DNA of 64,000 nucleotides from Tritonibacter horizontis. Lineage in GTDB: Bacteria; Pseudomonadota; Alphaproteobacteria; Rhodobacterales; Rhodobacteraceae. This document shows, one piece after another, positions 253-7,115 of the stretch. The translations under genes were made by a program, and so were the position numbers. The DNA lies in the NCBI RefSeq assembly GCF_001518015.1, contig NZ_LPUY01000041.1, positions 1-64,000 of the forward strand. The letters are read 5' to 3'. The stretch's first letter is position 1. Every line of letters starts with the position of its first letter. Under the pieces are notes generated by a model that saw only the letters and a program-made list of their open reading frames with translations, had not been told where the DNA came from and made no database searches.

Positions 253-1122
253 ATGCGAAACCGTTTAGCGGGGTTACTGTTCCTCATCGCCACATCCGGC
301 GCCGCGCAAGAGGTGGTGGAGCATGTCGAGACCGCGCATGGCAGGGCGGGGCACGCCTGTTTCGTCCGGGCCGAGACCGACGCGGGCACCGGGGTCACCT
401 TTCAGCTTTCTGATTACACCTCCACCTGGCAGCTCAGGGTCTTTGTGTCGAACCGCGCCGAGTATTACCGCAGCTTTGCGGCGGCGGGGCAGATCGACCG
501 CGACAGGTTCCGGCGCGCCCATGACCGATATGAAATCGGCGCGGCGTCGATTGCCGTTCAGGACGTGTTCTTTCCCTTTACCAGCCTGGACGAGATTTCG
601 GACAGCTCCCGGGCCGCGCTTGAGGTCTCTGGCTTTCAGAACGTTGCCGAGGTGCTGATGCGGATGTCGGGCGACCGCATCGTGGCACCGGGTCTGCTGG
701 ACGTGACCGGGCTGGCGCCAGTGTTCAAAGCGGTGCGCAGCTGCGGCGTCGAGGCGATGGGGCTCAAGTTCGGCACCAGGATCGCGGTCCGGATCCGGGC
801 CGACTACCGGATGAAGTTCGATGCGTTGCACACGGAGGTTGTCGAACATCTGAGCACGGCAGAAAACTGCGGCCGCCGGGCGCCGCCCTGGCTGACCCTG
901 GCCGAGCTGGAACAGCGCGCGGCCAAGGCGTTCTTTCCGGGTTTGCTGTCTTTTGCCAAGCGCGCCTCCTATGCCCGCGATCTGGAATACTCCCGCAGGC
1001 TCGGCACGCTCAGGGGCGTGTCCGGCGCGATCAAGGGCAATTGCTTGGTCCCCGGAACCCTGGCGCATTCCCGTCTGGAGACGATGCAGATGATGGTGCG
1101 CGCCGCCGAGGAGCTGAACTAG
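253..1122 (+). CDS. hypothetical secreted protein
   Basis: Encodes a 289-aa protein I do not recognise. The ATG at 253 is chosen because a GGAGGGGAA ribosome-binding site lies just upstream and the translation begins with a typical signal peptide (MRNRLAGLLFLIATSGAAQ, cleavage probably after GAA). The predicted mature protein keeps four cysteines, which could form two disulfides in the periplasm. No catalytic motif is apparent. It is followed by a long non-coding stretch and is not obviously part of the division operon. The open frame can be extended upstream to 169, but those residues are Arg-rich and precede the ribosome-binding site. Confidence 0.7.
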   Translation: MRNRLAGLLFLIATSGAAQEVVEHVETAHGRAGHACFVRAETDAGTGVTFQLSDYTSTWQLRVFVSNRAEYYRSFAAAGQIDRDRFRRAHDRYEIGAASIAVQDVFFPFTSLDEISDSSRAALEVSGFQNVAEVLMRMSGDRIVAPGLLDVTGLAPVFKAVRSCGVEAMGLKFGTRIAVRIRADYRMKFDALHTEVVEHLSTAENCGRRAPPWLTLAELEQRAAKAFFPGLLSFAKRASYARDLEYSRRLGTLRGVSGAIKGNCLVPGTLAHSRLETMQMMVRAAEELN

Positions 1123-1677: not shown

Positions 1678-1707
1678 TTGCTGTCCCGTGCTTTCCCGTA
1701 GTATCCC
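1678..1707 (+). promoter_or_regulatory. candidate promoter of the mraZ/dcw leader
   Basis: TTGCTG (1678-1683) and TATCCC (1702-1707) are separated by 18 bp and resemble a sigma-70 promoter with a degenerate -10. Transcription would start near 1714. That fits a leader RNA of about 207 nt ending at the terminator at 1881-1920, and an mraZ 5' leader of about 278 nt. Confidence 0.5.
1684..1707 (-). promoter_or_regulatory. candidate MraZ operator (three 10-bp-spaced boxes)
   Basis: TCCC occurs at 1684-1687, 1694-1697 and 1704-1707, exactly 10 bp apart; on the minus strand this reads as three GGGA boxes. In E. coli MraZ binds three TGGG-type 5-nt repeats separated by 5 nt, giving the same period. 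The boxes lie between the proposed -35 and -10 elements, where bound MraZ would block the promoter of its own operon. The match to the E. coli site is inference. Confidence 0.5.
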
Positions 1708-1713
1708 TTTGTC

Positions 1714-1920
1714 ATCGGATGAAGTTGAAGAGCAACGGGGCAACAAACGACCCCAACCTTACAAAACGGCAGGTTCATACAGGCCTTCGGTTTCATCACG
1801 CAAGAGATCCGGCGCGCGAGCGAGCAGACATCCCCCCAGGTGGCGCGCGCAGTCGGACACCCCGCAGAGCGGGTCAAGGTGGCGGGTTGATCAGTGGCAG
1901 CGGATCAGCCCGCCCCTTTT
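1714..1920 (+). ncRNA. UpsM-like sRNA from the mraZ 5' leader (predicted)
   Basis: Rhodobacter sphaeroides makes an abundant sRNA called UpsM, about 206 nt long, from the 5' leader of mraZ by premature termination. The layout here is the same: a promoter near 1678-1707, no credible reading frame, and a Rho-independent terminator ending at 1920, 71 nt before the mraZ start. The start point is estimated from the promoter, not proven. Read-through would feed mraZ and the downstream dcw genes, so this leader may set the expression level of the cluster. Confidence 0.55.
1881..1920 (+). terminator. Rho-independent terminator in the mraZ leader
   Basis: The 12-bp stem 1881-1892 / 1903-1914 has a single G-T wobble, a 10-nt loop, and is followed by CC and TTTT. 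It sits before mraZ on the coding strand and so acts as an attenuator or sRNA 3' end rather than a normal gene-end terminator. Confidence 0.7.
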
Positions 1921-1991
1921 AGTTTTCAGCCCCGGAAACGTCGGGCGCCGACGACCGCGCGGGGCGCGGGGTGCGGGAAAGGGACGGCAGA

Positions 1992-2495: not shown

Positions 2496-3488
2496 GTGAT
2501 GACGGACCGCACCCCCGCTCCGACCGGTCCCCATATCCCCGTTCTGCTGACCCCGCTCTTGGCGGCAGTGGCGCCGGTGACGGGGCGGTGGCTGGATGGC
2601 ACATTTGGCGCCGGTGGCTACACCAAGGGCCTGCTGGCGGCAGGCGCGGATCAGGTCATCGGTGTGGATCGCGACCCGCTGGCGTTCGAGCTGGCACAGC
2701 CCTGGGCGGCAGAATATGGCGACCGGCTGGTGTTGCAGCAGGGCGTGTTCTCGCGCATGGATGAATACGCCAGCGATCTCGACGGGGTGGTGCTGGACCT
2801 TGGCGTCTCCTCGATGCAGCTTGATCTGGCCGAACGCGGCTTTTCCTTTATGAAAGACGGCCCGCTGGATATGCGGATGAGCCAGGAGGGCCCCTCGGCA
2901 GCGGATCTTGTGGCGACGCTGACGGATGTCCAGATTGCTGATATCCTTTATCATTTTGGTGAAGAACGCGCCAGCCGCCGGATCGCCAAGGCCATCGTGG
3001 CGGCCCGCGCAGAGGCACCGATCACCACCACGCTGCAGCTTACCCAGATCATCGAAAGCTGCCTGCCACGGCCCAAGCCGGGCCAATCCCATCCTGCCAC
3101 CCGCAGCTTTCAGGCGCTGCGCATCGCGGTGAATGGCGAATACGAAGAGCTGATGGGCGGCTTGCTGGCCGCTGAACGGGCGCTGAAGCCCGGTGGCCTG
3201 CTGGCGGTGGTGACCTTTCATTCGGTCGAGGACCGGATGGTCAAACGCTTCTTCCAGCATCGCGCCAACAAGACCGGCAATGCCAACCGCTATGCCCCGG
3301 CGCTGGAAGAACAGCCCGCCCAGTTCGAGCTGGTCACCCGCAAGGCCGTTGGCCCGGATGACACCGAACTGGCCCGCAACCCACGCTCCCGTTCGGCGCT
3401 GTTGCGGGTCGGTCGGCGCACCGAGGCCGCCCCGGCCGAGATCACCGCCCGCGAGCTGAGCATGCCGCAGTTGAAAGAGACACGTTGA
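2496..3488 (+). CDS. rsmH: 16S rRNA (cytosine(1402)-N(4))-methyltransferase RsmH
   Basis: Encodes 330 aa. RsmH (MraW) methylates N4 of C1402 in 16S rRNA using S-adenosylmethionine. The family N-terminus [10 protein letters not shown], the SAM-binding motif [10 protein letters not shown] near residues 33-42, [10 protein letters not shown], and the C-terminal [10 protein letters not shown] are present. The start is GTG at 2496 or ATG at 2499; GGAGG at 2484-2488 suits both. The start abuts the mraZ stop, and the stop overlaps the ftsL start (TGATG), so translation is probably coupled. Confidence 0.96.
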
Positions 3489-3835
3489 TGAAGACGCTGG
3501 TCTATATTTTCACAATCCTGGCGGTGTTTGGTCTGGCCTTCTGGGCCTACCGTGAAAACTACGCCACCCAGCAGGTGCTGAAAGAAACCCGCGTGATGCG
3601 CAGCGACATTGCCTCCGCGCAGGTGCGGCTCAGCGTGTTGCGGGCGGAATGGGCCTATCTGAACCGGCCCGACCGGTTGCGGGCGCTGGCTGAAATCAAT
3701 TTCGAACGGCTCGGCCTGTTGCCGCTGCGCCCTGACCAGTTTGGTCGCGTGGACGAAGTGTCCTATCCGCGGTCCGGTCTGGTGATCGAAGAGGGCGTCG
3801 AGGTTTCGGCCTATGGCCAGGAGGAGGACCAATGA
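3488..3835 (+). CDS. ftsL: cell division protein FtsL
   Basis: Encodes a 115-aa bitopic protein. A single membrane segment covers about residues 3-21 (TLVYIFTILAVFGLAFWAY), followed by a short periplasmic region expected to form a coiled coil with FtsB/DivIC-type partners. The RPDRLRALAEINF segment is typical of alphaproteobacterial FtsL. The ATG at 3488 overlaps the rsmH stop; the frame extends 3 nt to a TTG but ATG is preferred. The last codons overlap the ftsI start (ATGA) and carry its GGAGGAGG ribosome-binding site. Position between rsmH and ftsI supports the call. Confidence 0.9.
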   Translation: MKTLVYIFTILAVFGLAFWAYRENYATQQVLKETRVMRSDIASAQVRLSVLRAEWAYLNRPDRLRALAEINFERLGLLPLRPDQFGRVDEVSYPRSGLVIEEGVEVSAYGQEEDQ

Positions 3836-5616
3836 TCCGCACCCCACTGCGTCCGCTGGCCCGTGTCCTGCCCGCCCGCGCGCGCGGCGAAAATCCCGAC
3901 CTGATCGAACGCGAAAACATCGCCCATCGCCACCGCGACATGGAAGCCCGCGCCCGCGTCCGCGCCGAGGGACGGCTGTTGGTGCTGGCGGCGTTTTTTG
4001 TCTGCGCCTATCTCGCGGTTGGTGGCCGTATGGCCTTTATGGCGACCTCGGAAGCCTCTGAGCCGGTGGCGGCCATCGGCGGCAGCGCCATCGCCAATCA
4101 GCGGGCCGATATCGTCGACCGGGCCGGGCGTATTCTGGCGACCAATTTCGAAACCCATTCGCTTTATGCGCAGCCGCCGCAGATGGTCGACCCGGTTTCC
4201 GCGGCCGACAAACTGGTGGCGATCTTCCCGGATCTGGACCGGGAAAAGCTGCTGGAAAACTTCACCGGCAAGCGTAAGTTTCTGTGGATAAAGAGAAAAA
4301 TCAGCCCGGAGCAGATGCAGGCCGTGCATGACATCGGCGATCCGGGCCTGATGTTCGGCCCGCGTGAAATGCGGCTTTATCCCAACGGTCGGCTGGCGTC
4401 CCATGTGCTCGGCGGTGCCTCCTTTGGCAAAGAGGGGGTCAATGCGGCCGAGGTGATCGGGGTTGCCGGCGTCGAAAAGCAATTTGACGAGCTGCTGCGC
4501 GATCCGGCCAATGCGGGCAAGCCACTGACGCTGAGCCTTGATCTGTCGATCCAGGACGCCACCGAAGAGCTGCTCTATGGCGGCATGAAACTGATGAACG
4601 CCAAGGGCGCGACCTCCATCCTGATGGATGTGCACACGGGCGAGGTGATCTCGGTCGCGAGCCTGCCGGATTTTGATCCCAACGAACGGCCCCGGCCGCC
4701 GACCTCCGGGTTTGATCCGTCGCAAAGCCCGCTGTTCAACCGCTCGGTGCAGGGCGTGTATGAACTGGGCTCCACCTTCAAGATCTTTGCCGCCGCCCAG
4801 GCGATGGAACTGGGTCTGGTGAACCCGGACAGCATCATCGACATTCGTGGCCCGCTGCGCTGGGGAAAATTCACCATCCGGGATTTCCACAACTACGGCA
4901 AGGAGTTGTCGGTGGCCAAGATCATCGAGAAATCCTCCAACATCGGCACGGCTCGGCTGGCGCAACAGATCGGCGCCGAGCGTCAGCGCGCCTTCCTCGA
5001 CGACCTCGGGATGTTGAAAGCGACACCGTTCGAGATCGTCGAAGCCTCCGGCGGGCAGCCGCTTCTGCCCAAGAACTGGTCGGAGCTTTCGGCGATGACG
5101 ATTTCCTACGGTCACGGGATTTCCACCACGCCGATGCATCTTGCGGCGGGCTATGCCGCGATTGCCAATGGCGGTCACTATGTGGCCCCGACCATCCTCA
5201 AACAGAACGGCCCGCAGCTGGGCCCGCGGGTGATGCGGCGCGAGGTGGCGGATGCCTCTCTTGCGATGCTGCGGGCCGTGGTCAGCGAGGGCACCGCCTC
5301 CTTTGCCGAGGTCAAGGGCTACGAGGTGGGCGGCAAGACCGGCACCGCCGACAAGCCCAAGCCGCGTGGCGGGTATTACGAGGACAAGGTGATCGCGACC
5401 TTTGCTTCGGTGTTTCCGGTCAGCGATCCGAAATATGTGCTGGTGGTGACCCTGGACGAGCCGGAAATCGTGGCCCATAACGAAGCGCGCCGGACCGCGG
5501 GCTGGACGGCGGCCCCCGTCGCTGCCGAAATGATCGCCCGGCTGGCGCCGCTGCTGGGGCTCAGACCACAGATTGAACCCACACGCATCTCTAGTGTAAC
5601 CCTCACCTCAAACTAA
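3832..5616 (+). CDS. ftsI: septal peptidoglycan transpeptidase FtsI (PBP3)
   Basis: Encodes 594 aa, the usual size for class B PBP3. A cytoplasmic N-terminus of about 45 residues precedes one membrane segment (near residues 46-66), a PBP dimerisation domain and a transpeptidase domain. Catalytic motifs are complete: STFK at 314-317, SSN at 368-370 and KTG at 502-504. It crosslinks septal peptidoglycan together with FtsW, whose gene lies downstream. The start ATG overlaps the ftsL stop and has a strong GGAGGAGG site. murE begins 14 nt after the stop. Confidence 0.96.
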   Translation: MIRTPLRPLARVLPARARGENPDLIERENIAHRHRDMEARARVRAEGRLLVLAAFFVCAYLAVGGRMAFMATSEASEPVAAIGGSAIANQRADIVDRAGRILATNFETHSLYAQPPQMVDPVSAADKLVAIFPDLDREKLLENFTGKRKFLWIKRKISPEQMQAVHDIGDPGLMFGPREMRLYPNGRLASHVLGGASFGKEGVNAAEVIGVAGVEKQFDELLRDPANAGKPLTLSLDLSIQDATEELLYGGMKLMNAKGATSILMDVHTGEVISVASLPDFDPNERPRPPTSGFDPSQSPLFNRSVQGVYELGSTFKIFAAAQAMELGLVNPDSIIDIRGPLRWGKFTIRDFHNYGKELSVAKIIEKSSNIGTARLAQQIGAERQRAFLDDLGMLKATPFEIVEASGGQPLLPKNWSELSAMTISYGHGISTTPMHLAAGYAAIANGGHYVAPTILKQNGPQLGPRVMRREVADASLAMLRAVVSEGTASFAEVKGYEVGGKTGTADKPKPRGGYYEDKVIATFASVFPVSDPKYVLVVTLDEPEIVAHNEARRTAGWTAAPVAAEMIARLAPLLGLRPQIEPTRISSVTLTSN

Positions 5617-5630
5617 GTGGTGGGGACTCC

Positions 5631-7115
5631 ATGACAGACAATCAACCGCTCAAGCTCAGCCAGTTGGGACTGACGGCGCGTGGCGGCGTCGATCCTGTGG
5701 TGCGCGGGCTGGCCGTGGACAGCCGCGAGGCGGGCGAAGGCTTTGTGTTTGCTGCACTTGCGGGATCGCGGGTGCACGGCGCGCGTTTTGTTCCCCAGGT
5801 GCTGGCGCAGGGGGCGGTGGCGGTTCTGACTGATGCCGAGGGGGCCGCAATCGCCGGAGAGGCCATCGCGGCGGCCGGCGCGGCGCTGGTGCTGGCCGAA
5901 GACCCGCGTCAGGCGCTGTCCGGGGCGGCGGCGCTGTGGTTCGGCGGACAACCGCCGGTGATGGCAGCCGTGACCGGCACCAATGGCAAGACCTCTGTCG
6001 CGACCTTCCTGCGGATGATCTGGACCGAACTTGGCCACAGTGCGGTCAACCTCGGCACCACCGGGATCGAGGGCGCCTGGAGCCATCCTCTGGCCCATAC
6101 CACACCGGAGCCGATCACCCTGCATCGCGCGCTGGCCGCCGCCGCCGAGGCAGGCGTCACCCATGCGGCGATGGAGGCCTCGTCGCACGGGCTTGATCAG
6201 CGGCGTCTCGATGGGGTCAATCTGCTGGCGGCGGGGTTCACCAATTTCACCCAGGACCATCTGGATTATCACGAAACTTTCGAGGCCTATTTTGCCGCCA
6301 AGGCCGGGCTGTTCCGCCGCATCCTGTCCGAGGACGGGGTGGCGGTGATCAACCTCTCTGATCCGCGCGGGTCAGAGATGCGCGCGATTGCGGCGGCGCG
6401 CGGCCAGGAGGTGATCACCGTCGGGCGTGGACTTGGCGATCTGAAGCTGCAGGGCGTGCGGGTCGATGCCACCGGACAGGACATCCGTTTTGCCTGGCAC
6501 GACCGGCCGTTTGGCATGCGGCTGAACCTGATCGGCGGGTTCCAGGCCGAAAACGTGCTGGTCGCGGCGGGGTTGGCGATCGCCAGCGGCGAGGTGCCGG
6601 AACAGGTGTTTGAAACGTTGCCGCATCTGACCACGGTGCGGGGCCGGATGCAGCTGGCGGCGACCCGCGACAATGGCGCGACGGTGTTTGTGGACTACGC
6701 CCATACGCCCGATGCGGTTGCCACCGCGATCAAGGCGCTGCGGCCGCATGTGCTTGGCCGGCTGGTGGCCATCGTCGGGGCGGGCGGCGACCGCGATGCC
6801 GGCAAGCGCCCGCTGATGGGGCAGGCCGCCCATGAGGCCGCCGATCTGGTGATCGTGACCGACGACAACCCGCGCAGCGAGGATCCCGACGCGATCCGGG
6901 CCGCCGTGATGGGCGGCGCGCCGGATGCGCTGAACGTCGGCGACCGGGCCGAGGCGATCCTGCGCGGGGTTGATCTGCTGGATCCGGGCGACGCGCTGCT
7001 GATTTGCGGCAAGGGCCATGAAAGCGGGCAGATCGTCGGCTCTGACGTGCTGCCTTTTGACGATGTGGAACAGGCCAGCATGGCCGTCGCCGCGCTGGAC
7101 GGGAGAATGGTATGA
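5631..7115 (+). CDS. murE: UDP-N-acetylmuramoyl-L-alanyl-D-glutamate--2,6-diaminopimelate ligase MurE
   Basis: Encodes 494 aa. MurE adds the third residue to the UDP-MurNAc peptide in the cytoplasm using ATP. The Mur ligase P-loop TGTNGKTS is at about residues 115-122. DNPR at 412-415 is the signature of the meso-diaminopimelate-adding enzymes, so the peptidoglycan should be DAP-type. The central-domain motif MEASSHGLDQRR is present. The stop overlaps the murF start (ATGA at 7112-7115), so the two are translationally coupled. Confidence 0.97.
   Translation: MTDNQPLKLSQLGLTARGGVDPVVRGLAVDSREAGEGFVFAALAGSRVHGARFVPQVLAQGAVAVLTDAEGAAIAGEAIAAAGAALVLAEDPRQALSGAAALWFGGQPPVMAAVTGTNGKTSVATFLRMIWTELGHSAVNLGTTGIEGAWSHPLAHTTPEPITLHRALAAAAEAGVTHAAMEASSHGLDQRRLDGVNLLAAGFTNFTQDHLDYHETFEAYFAAKAGLFRRILSEDGVAVINLSDPRGSEMRAIAAARGQEVITVGRGLGDLKLQGVRVDATGQDIRFAWHDRPFGMRLNLIGGFQAENVLVAAGLAIASGEVPEQVFETLPHLTTVRGRMQLAATRDNGATVFVDYAHTPDAVATAIKALRPHVLGRLVAIVGAGGDRDAGKRPLMGQAAHEAADLVIVTDDNPRSEDPDAIRAAVMGGAPDALNVGDRAEAILRGVDLLDPGDALLICGKGHESGQIVGSDVLPFDDVEQASMAVAALDGRMV

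Follow-up and report, generated by a model that had tools for sequence, protein, structure and literature searches.

The dcw-cluster leader UpsM in Tritonibacter horizontis and its relatives: conserved terminator, probable MraZ operator and complementarity to an StsR-like sRNA

The stretch of DNA analysed here, hereafter called the window, comprises 64,000 nucleotides of Tritonibacter horizontis and carries a series of dcw genes on its forward strand. The gene mraZ (1992–2495) starts with GTG and encodes a protein that matches the NCBIfam MraZ equivalog over residues 1–164 of 167 (220.5 bits against a cut-off of 162). It is followed by rsmH (mraW, 2496–3488), ftsL (3488–3835) and murE (5631–7115), all recognised by family profile matches, and between the last two by an ftsI/PBP-type dcw gene (3832–5616), whose family matches are below the curated cut-offs. 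Directly upstream of mraZ and on the same strand is a leader without a clear gene, although it is crossed by a 67-aa ATG frame (1719–1922) and a 165-aa TTG frame (1655–2152). A 289-aa frame further upstream (253–1119, forward strand) gave no NCBIfam match. Phages and plasmids contained no match to positions 1675–1925 of the window, and the leader had no match at gathering score in Rfam release 15.

The leader is preceded by a predicted promoter on the forward strand at 1678–1707, composed of a −35-like TTGCTG (1678–1683), 18 nt and a −10-like TATCCC (1702–1707), and it contains a predicted intrinsic terminator, R4, at 1881–1920. In R4, GGCGGGTTGATC (1881–1892) pairs with GATCAGCCCGCC (1903–1914) in a stem of 12 pairs including one G-T, the loop AGTGGCAGCG has 10 nt, and a T-run is located at 1917–1920. 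A little-conserved spacer of 71 nt (1921–1991) separates the terminator from the GTG at 1992. The promoter-like elements and the 12-bp terminator 71 nt before mraZ, both named in a preliminary description of this DNA, were found again. The −10 TATCCC is a poor consensus match, and a consensus scan of the window reported neither this promoter nor the R4 terminator (the scan had a loop limit of 8 nt, the R4 loop has 10), so that both calls rest on comparison with relatives. The window promoter was kept in an alignment of 81 sequences, and a hairpin with a T-run was observed before mraZ in 80 of 80 named relatives, with a near-constant terminator loop AGTGGCAGC; this set represents the best 80 of 285 confirmed mraZ loci, with titles mostly of roseobacter-group genera.

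A covariance model of the leader (model R1), built from 41 representatives of the clade, matched genome G051 at 694691–694843 with an E-value of 6.6e-32. Since the RNase E cut of Rhodobacter sphaeroides UpsM published at 694,720 (PMC6238624) falls inside this match, G051 was taken as R. sphaeroides 2.4.1 and the match as UpsM (RSs0682). With the R. sphaeroides genome identified in this way, the window leader is judged by location, architecture, model match and direct alignment to be an orthologue of UpsM, a stronger statement than the likeness to UpsM proposed beforehand. UpsM and the UTR of mraZ in R. sphaeroides have published lengths of 206 and 268 nt, respectively (PMC5089854). Counted back from the GTG of its mraZ, the 268 nt place the R. 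sphaeroides UpsM start at a base that aligns to about 1715 of the window, and the UpsM RNA predicted here spans 1715–1920 on the forward strand (206 nt; start by alignment, ±8 nt or so), equal to the published length and in line with the approximately 207 nt of the preliminary description. A published fragment of about 130 nt would move the inferred UpsM start by 8 nt, and the site 694,720 is likewise off by 8 nt. The window promoter aligns with TTGCGT-17-CATCCC preceding the R. sphaeroides UpsM start.

The two leaders share the site before mraZ, a length of about 206 nt, the R1–R4 architecture with R4 as terminator, the conserved TTCATACAGGC, the R2 sequence and the promoter position. They belong to different genera and differ in the sequences of the terminator stem, R1 and R3, as well as in the spacer to mraZ, which has 71 nt in the window versus 62 nt in R. 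sphaeroides (268 minus 206, from the published lengths). R. sphaeroides UpsM is cut just past UUUCAUCC, the window equivalent being about 1798–1799. R. sphaeroides UpsM is transcribed, partly terminated, the sole source of mraZ mRNA, bound by Hfq and cut by RNase E, and the window leader has the conserved context of the cut site; by analogy with the R. sphaeroides work, transcription, termination, an effect of StsR and RNase E cleavage would be expected in T. horizontis as well.

The RNA from 1714 to 1925 was predicted to fold with −87.2 kcal/mol (z = −3.66), and none of 200 shuffled sequences folded as well. Its 5' domain R1 (1716–1800, forward strand) is closed by GAUGAAG.../...UUUCAUC, the 3' strand of which adjoins the equivalent of the RNase E site. 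Weber et al. described R1 as hardly conserved (PMC5089854), and the R1 sequence was indeed variable among the relatives compared here. When leaders were folded individually, the closing stem formed in 164 of the 169 analysable ones (245 in all). In the alignment this stem, helix 2, which holds the cut site, paired in 79 per cent of cells, and outer or inner helices of the window fold were poorly kept, with values of 10 per cent for helix 1 and 33 per cent for helix 6. The hairpin R2 (1808–1857, forward strand), seen by covariation, is near identical in the 41 representatives, and R2 and the stretch TTTCATACAGGC were almost invariant in the alignment. Its C-rich loop ACATCCCCCCAGG (1828–1840) is almost invariant in the clade, and no partner was found for it. 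R3 (1861–1873, forward strand) is a short hairpin, CCCGC/GCGGG, recognised by fold and covariation. Among 84 diverse sequences, 31 of the 32 model pairs of R2–R4 had changed on both sides (13 of 14 in R4), and 94.8 per cent of cells paired, a value that 0 of 500 shuffles reached, in an alignment that had been fitted to the structure model. The 15 strongest covarying column pairs were all structure pairs of R2, R3 and R4. The comparison with Rhodobacterales relatives that had been proposed as a check found covariation of R2–R4 and a conserved closing stem of R1.

Conservation of this kind could also be explained by a riboswitch or attenuator, in which a ligand or protein acting on R2 or R3 switches the terminator via an alternative antiterminator pairing. 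This idea was put forward for R. sphaeroides by Weber et al. (PMC5089854), and the near invariance of R2 and its C-rich loop within the clade is in its favour. However, none of the 45 strongest covarying column pairs joined a terminator arm to an upstream segment within 1770–1922, the alignment beginning at 1770 and thus downstream of the 5' half of R1, and Weber et al., having raised riboswitch-like refolding for R. sphaeroides, found it not conserved in their family alignment (PMC5089854). Moreover, the complementary sRNA described below provides another possible reason for the conservation of CGAGCAG and TTCATACAGGC, although the C-rich loop stays unexplained by it. We regard a riboswitch as improbable; the idea gains no support here, and neither does the attenuator of the preliminary description in the sense of a regulated antiterminator. 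The SreA/SreB sRNAs of Listeria are, like UpsM, terminated RNAs derived from a 5'-UTR with a possible role in trans (PMC5089854), but they are SAM riboswitches, whereas the UpsM leader here gave no sign of a ligand or, within 1770–1922, of an antiterminator.

Across the family, model R1 recovered the leader from 267 of 295 genomes, which correspond to 266 of 294 genera and include 241 of the 260 high-quality genomes. At the level of sequence this upholds the earlier suggestion of a conserved control point of the entire dcw cluster, but the point is not new: UpsM and its occurrence across the family were published by Weber et al. in 2016 (PMC5089854). The remaining 28 family genomes gave no match to model R1. 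In the 20 of them that were listed, mraZ could be located in 16 and the upstream region scored in 13, of which 9 had a hairpin of −17 kcal/mol or stronger 34–85 nt before mraZ and 4 did not, indicating that part of the misses of the model reflects divergence. Over 385 genomes of the class, under the stricter filters used for searches of more than 40 genomes, which lose weak matches, model R1 matched 6, of which 5 belong to the same family; a second model, R2, built from 84 more diverse leader sequences, recovered these 5 again, together with 2 weak matches without an adjoining mraZ. The matches in other families looked spurious. In G428 the match (E = 0.0078) runs into the end of a redox frame related to SelL (47 bits, where the cut-off is 120), and mraZ is not adjacent; those in G602 and G336 likewise had no adjoining mraZ, the latter reaching only E = 0.09.

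Within the family, mraZ was located downstream in 164 of the 165 model-match loci fetched, the single exception being a locus fetched as suspect. Two matches to model R1 occurred in 35 family genomes, where the second (E ≤ 0.01) turned out to be an antisense reading of the palindromic terminator, the exception being G278, where a weak additional match falls within a long open frame (L130). Other extra candidates were discarded as well: one in G198:C216 (E = 1.2e-4) is situated between two frames with mraZ absent (L449), one in G138:C7 (E = 0.012) also has no mraZ in its locus (L136), and the remaining second matches had E-values of 0.07–0.9. These observations bear on the view that the terminator is constitutively leaky and that its main product is a trans-acting, Hfq-bound sRNA, with control of dcw being incidental. 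A purely trans role would allow relocation, so that a leader fixed before mraZ and found without second copies in the 35 two-match genomes (the weak G278 match aside) argues against it, and we consider this view unlikely. The argument touches a purely trans role; trans action may be an added role of a leader that acts in cis on the dcw cluster.

The core promoter of the window is overlaid by a probable MraZ operator (1684–1708, minus strand). It consists of three repeats spaced exactly 10 bp apart, which on the forward strand are TCCCG (1684–1688), TCCCG (1694–1698) and TCCCT (1704–1708), that is xGGGA on the minus strand, where they read CGGGA, CGGGA and AGGGA and so differ from TGGGA. Arrays were scored against three TGGGA at a 10-bp period (maximum 15), with expectations from dinucleotide shuffles, and the window array scored 12 of 15. 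A score of at least 12 was reached by 117 of 164 family leaders on the minus strand (1.1 expected) and by 2 on the plus strand, and 14 of the 164 scored 10 or less; among the 80 named loci, 79 scored at least 12 (0.5 expected). The UpsM promoter of R. sphaeroides is overlaid by TCCCATGAAATCCCATGGCATCCCT. The mraZ gene of E. coli has TGGGAAATTG TGGGGCAAAG TGGGAATAAG upstream, and we take these TGGGA-type repeats to be the E. coli MraZ boxes. The E. coli boxes and the window array have in common three GGGA-type repeats with a 10-bp period, but in the window the array occupies the other strand and overlaps the core promoter. MraZ boxes have been located upstream of the E. coli dcw cluster (PMC8475190), and the MraZ site of Mollicutes, (AAAGTGKN3)3, is also made of three 10-nt repeats (PMC5282649). 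The leader of about 277 nt in the window contrasts with one of 38 nt in E. coli (PMC5089854).

As outgroups, the best MraZ-scoring loci of 30 other alphaproteobacterial families (of 96 genomes matching) were collected, in 25 of which the mraZ start was called. Of these 25 leaders, 23 scored at least 13 and 24 had their best array on the minus strand, 49–175 nt before mraZ (the shuffle control covers the family sets only), and a terminator-like hairpin of −20 kcal/mol was present in 1. Arrays that mostly come without a terminator in the outgroups suggest that the operator is ancestral and that the terminator leader was added in Rhodobacteraceae. Minus-strand 10-bp TGGGA arrays before mraZ, on the strand opposite to that in E. 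coli, were thus seen in many alphaproteobacterial families (L273–L302). That such arrays are common within Rhodobacteraceae as well as in further families of the Alphaproteobacteria suggests MraZ autorepression at this candidate operator, and binding and repression by MraZ in T. horizontis would be analogous to those in E. coli. Alternatively, the 10-bp TCCCN repeats could be parts of the promoter or the site of another regulator. They overlap the spacer and the −10 element, so that promoter constraint could conserve them, and CenR has been reported to give a ChIP signal, in the absence of its motif, at the mraZ promoter of R. sphaeroides (PMC9275681). On the other hand, the three-fold 10-bp period and the GGGA core agree with the repeats before E. 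coli mraZ, and they recur upstream of mraZ in 23 of 25 outgroup leaders, each from a different family, which makes the alternative doubtful in comparison with an MraZ operator. Neither an MraZ operator nor an MraZ-binding test in alphaproteobacteria was found in the open literature among the matches listed, judged by titles and the starts of abstracts, and the word stems 'repress' and 'loop' are absent from the main text of Weber et al. (PMC5089854).

Using the reverse complement of the conserved TTCATACAGGC, we searched 12 genomes for RNAs that could pair with the leader. In all 12, besides UpsM itself, an element beginning with ACTGCTCGATAGGTTTCTTGCCTGTATGAAACCTGCCTCAA was found after a CTTGG...TATAA stretch and ending in a strong terminator; most of the other reverse-complement matches examined were inside long open frames. 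In the genome of the window this element is located elsewhere, at G000:C74 (L380), and its sequence suggests an sRNA about 72 nt long that has a separate promoter-like stretch and terminator. A covariance model of it (model R3) gave matches in 289 of the 295 genomes of the family, including 258 of the 260 of high quality; 263 genomes have both RNAs, 26 the sRNA only, 4 UpsM only and 2 neither. Its first 46 nt were compared over 62 loci of 58 genomes, all among the best-scoring matches, and varied at three bases alone, the first one and two close to the end of this stretch. A protein similar to R. sphaeroides 3-hydroxybutyrate dehydrogenase was encoded downstream in 33 of 42 loci (39 genomes; L399–L428, L363, L380 and ten others).

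R. sphaeroides StsR (RSs0827) is a 72-nt RNA under control of RpoHI/RpoHII, which binds UpsM and gives RNase E access to a double-stranded region (PMC8307010). The conserved sRNA shares with StsR the length of about 72 nt, the promoter-like stretch, its own terminator and the complementarity to UpsM beside the RNase E site, and it is probably StsR. This identity is inferred, and the numbering of R. sphaeroides sRNAs, if it follows coordinates, puts StsR elsewhere: with RSs0682 at 694,720 and RSs1624 at 1,724,505 (PMC6238624), RSs0827 would be expected nearer 0.85 Mb, whereas the StsR-like locus was found at 1.444 Mb. In Rfam release 15 the R. sphaeroides StsR-like locus remained below the cut-offs, with SorX at 22.5 and suhB/mmgR at 20.5 bits. 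The weak likeness of this locus (L363, 1455–1535, minus strand) to SorX and suhB/mmgR extends over its full length, and a distant family link is possible.

The StsR-like sRNA is base-complementary to UpsM at two conserved places, at which pairing is predicted. The first putative site (1768–1784, forward strand), GGCAGGTTCATACAGGC, is complementary to GCCTGTATGAAACCTGCC of the sRNA with one bulged A, and its conserved part TTCATACAGGC was present in 127 of 164 leaders. The second (1821–1827, forward strand), CGAGCAG in upper R2, is complementary to the sRNA 5' end CTGCTCG, and CGAGCAG occurred in 132 of 164 leader stretches (anywhere within the stretch). Co-folding of the window pair gained −10.4 kcal/mol, compared with a mean of −4.4 and a best value of −9.4 for 30 shuffled controls, and the unpaired probability of UUUCAUC rose from 0–0.12 to 0.62–0.93, although nested co-folding by itself favours the opening of R1. 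For the R. sphaeroides pair the gain of −11.3 was within the range of the controls (30 shuffled; mean −7.3, best −14.4), and UUUCAUC was opened less (0.18–0.76). No compensatory change between UpsM and the sRNA was observed: where the UpsM site departs from TTCATACAGGC, pairing was kept in 10 cells and broken in 32, the copies of the sRNA compared being the best-scoring part of the list and invariant in the paired region.

Taken as one scheme, a terminated leader RNA, autorepression by MraZ and cleavage triggered by StsR very probably describe the UpsM leader ahead of the dcw genes in this roseobacter-type member of the family. The promoter at 1678–1707 would start an RNA at about 1715, most transcripts would end at R4 to give UpsM of about 206 nt, and the remaining ones would continue into mraZ-rsmH-ftsL-ftsI-murE. 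MraZ, encoded first on this read-through mRNA, would probably bind the three repeats over the core promoter and thereby repress UpsM and dcw alike. Under stress or in stationary phase, an StsR-like sRNA would pair with 1768–1784 and 1821–1827, opening the closing stem of R1 and exposing about 1791–1799 to RNase E, whose cleavage would lower both UpsM and dcw mRNA. We lean slightly towards a wider reading, in which a single three-layer switch of dcw operates across Rhodobacteraceae: MraZ autorepression through an operator shared with other alphaproteobacteria, the UpsM terminator, and the almost invariant stress sRNA StsR, which would read the R1 linker and the R2 loop at once and thereby open the RNase E site. 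In this reading the ancestor of the family would have acquired the leader as an insertion separating mraZ from an older promoter under MraZ control, and StsR would have been kept even more widely than UpsM.

To the published work on UpsM, the present comparison adds its scale, a direct link of orthology, a probable operator of MraZ type, the conservation of the R1 closing stem, and a family-wide StsR-like RNA with two possible contact sites. An RNA of cell-division control worked out in one species now extends to hundreds of genera of an abundant family, and models now exist for both UpsM and the StsR-like RNA, for neither of which an Rfam 15 match was found. Two predictions follow from the scheme, namely that MraZ binds and represses the UpsM promoter and that StsR uses two conserved contacts in the leader. 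As a minor observation from the same searches, a record titled Nocardioides marinus (L029) carries a roseobacter-like mraZ with an UpsM leader, and this assembly is probably mislabelled or contaminated.
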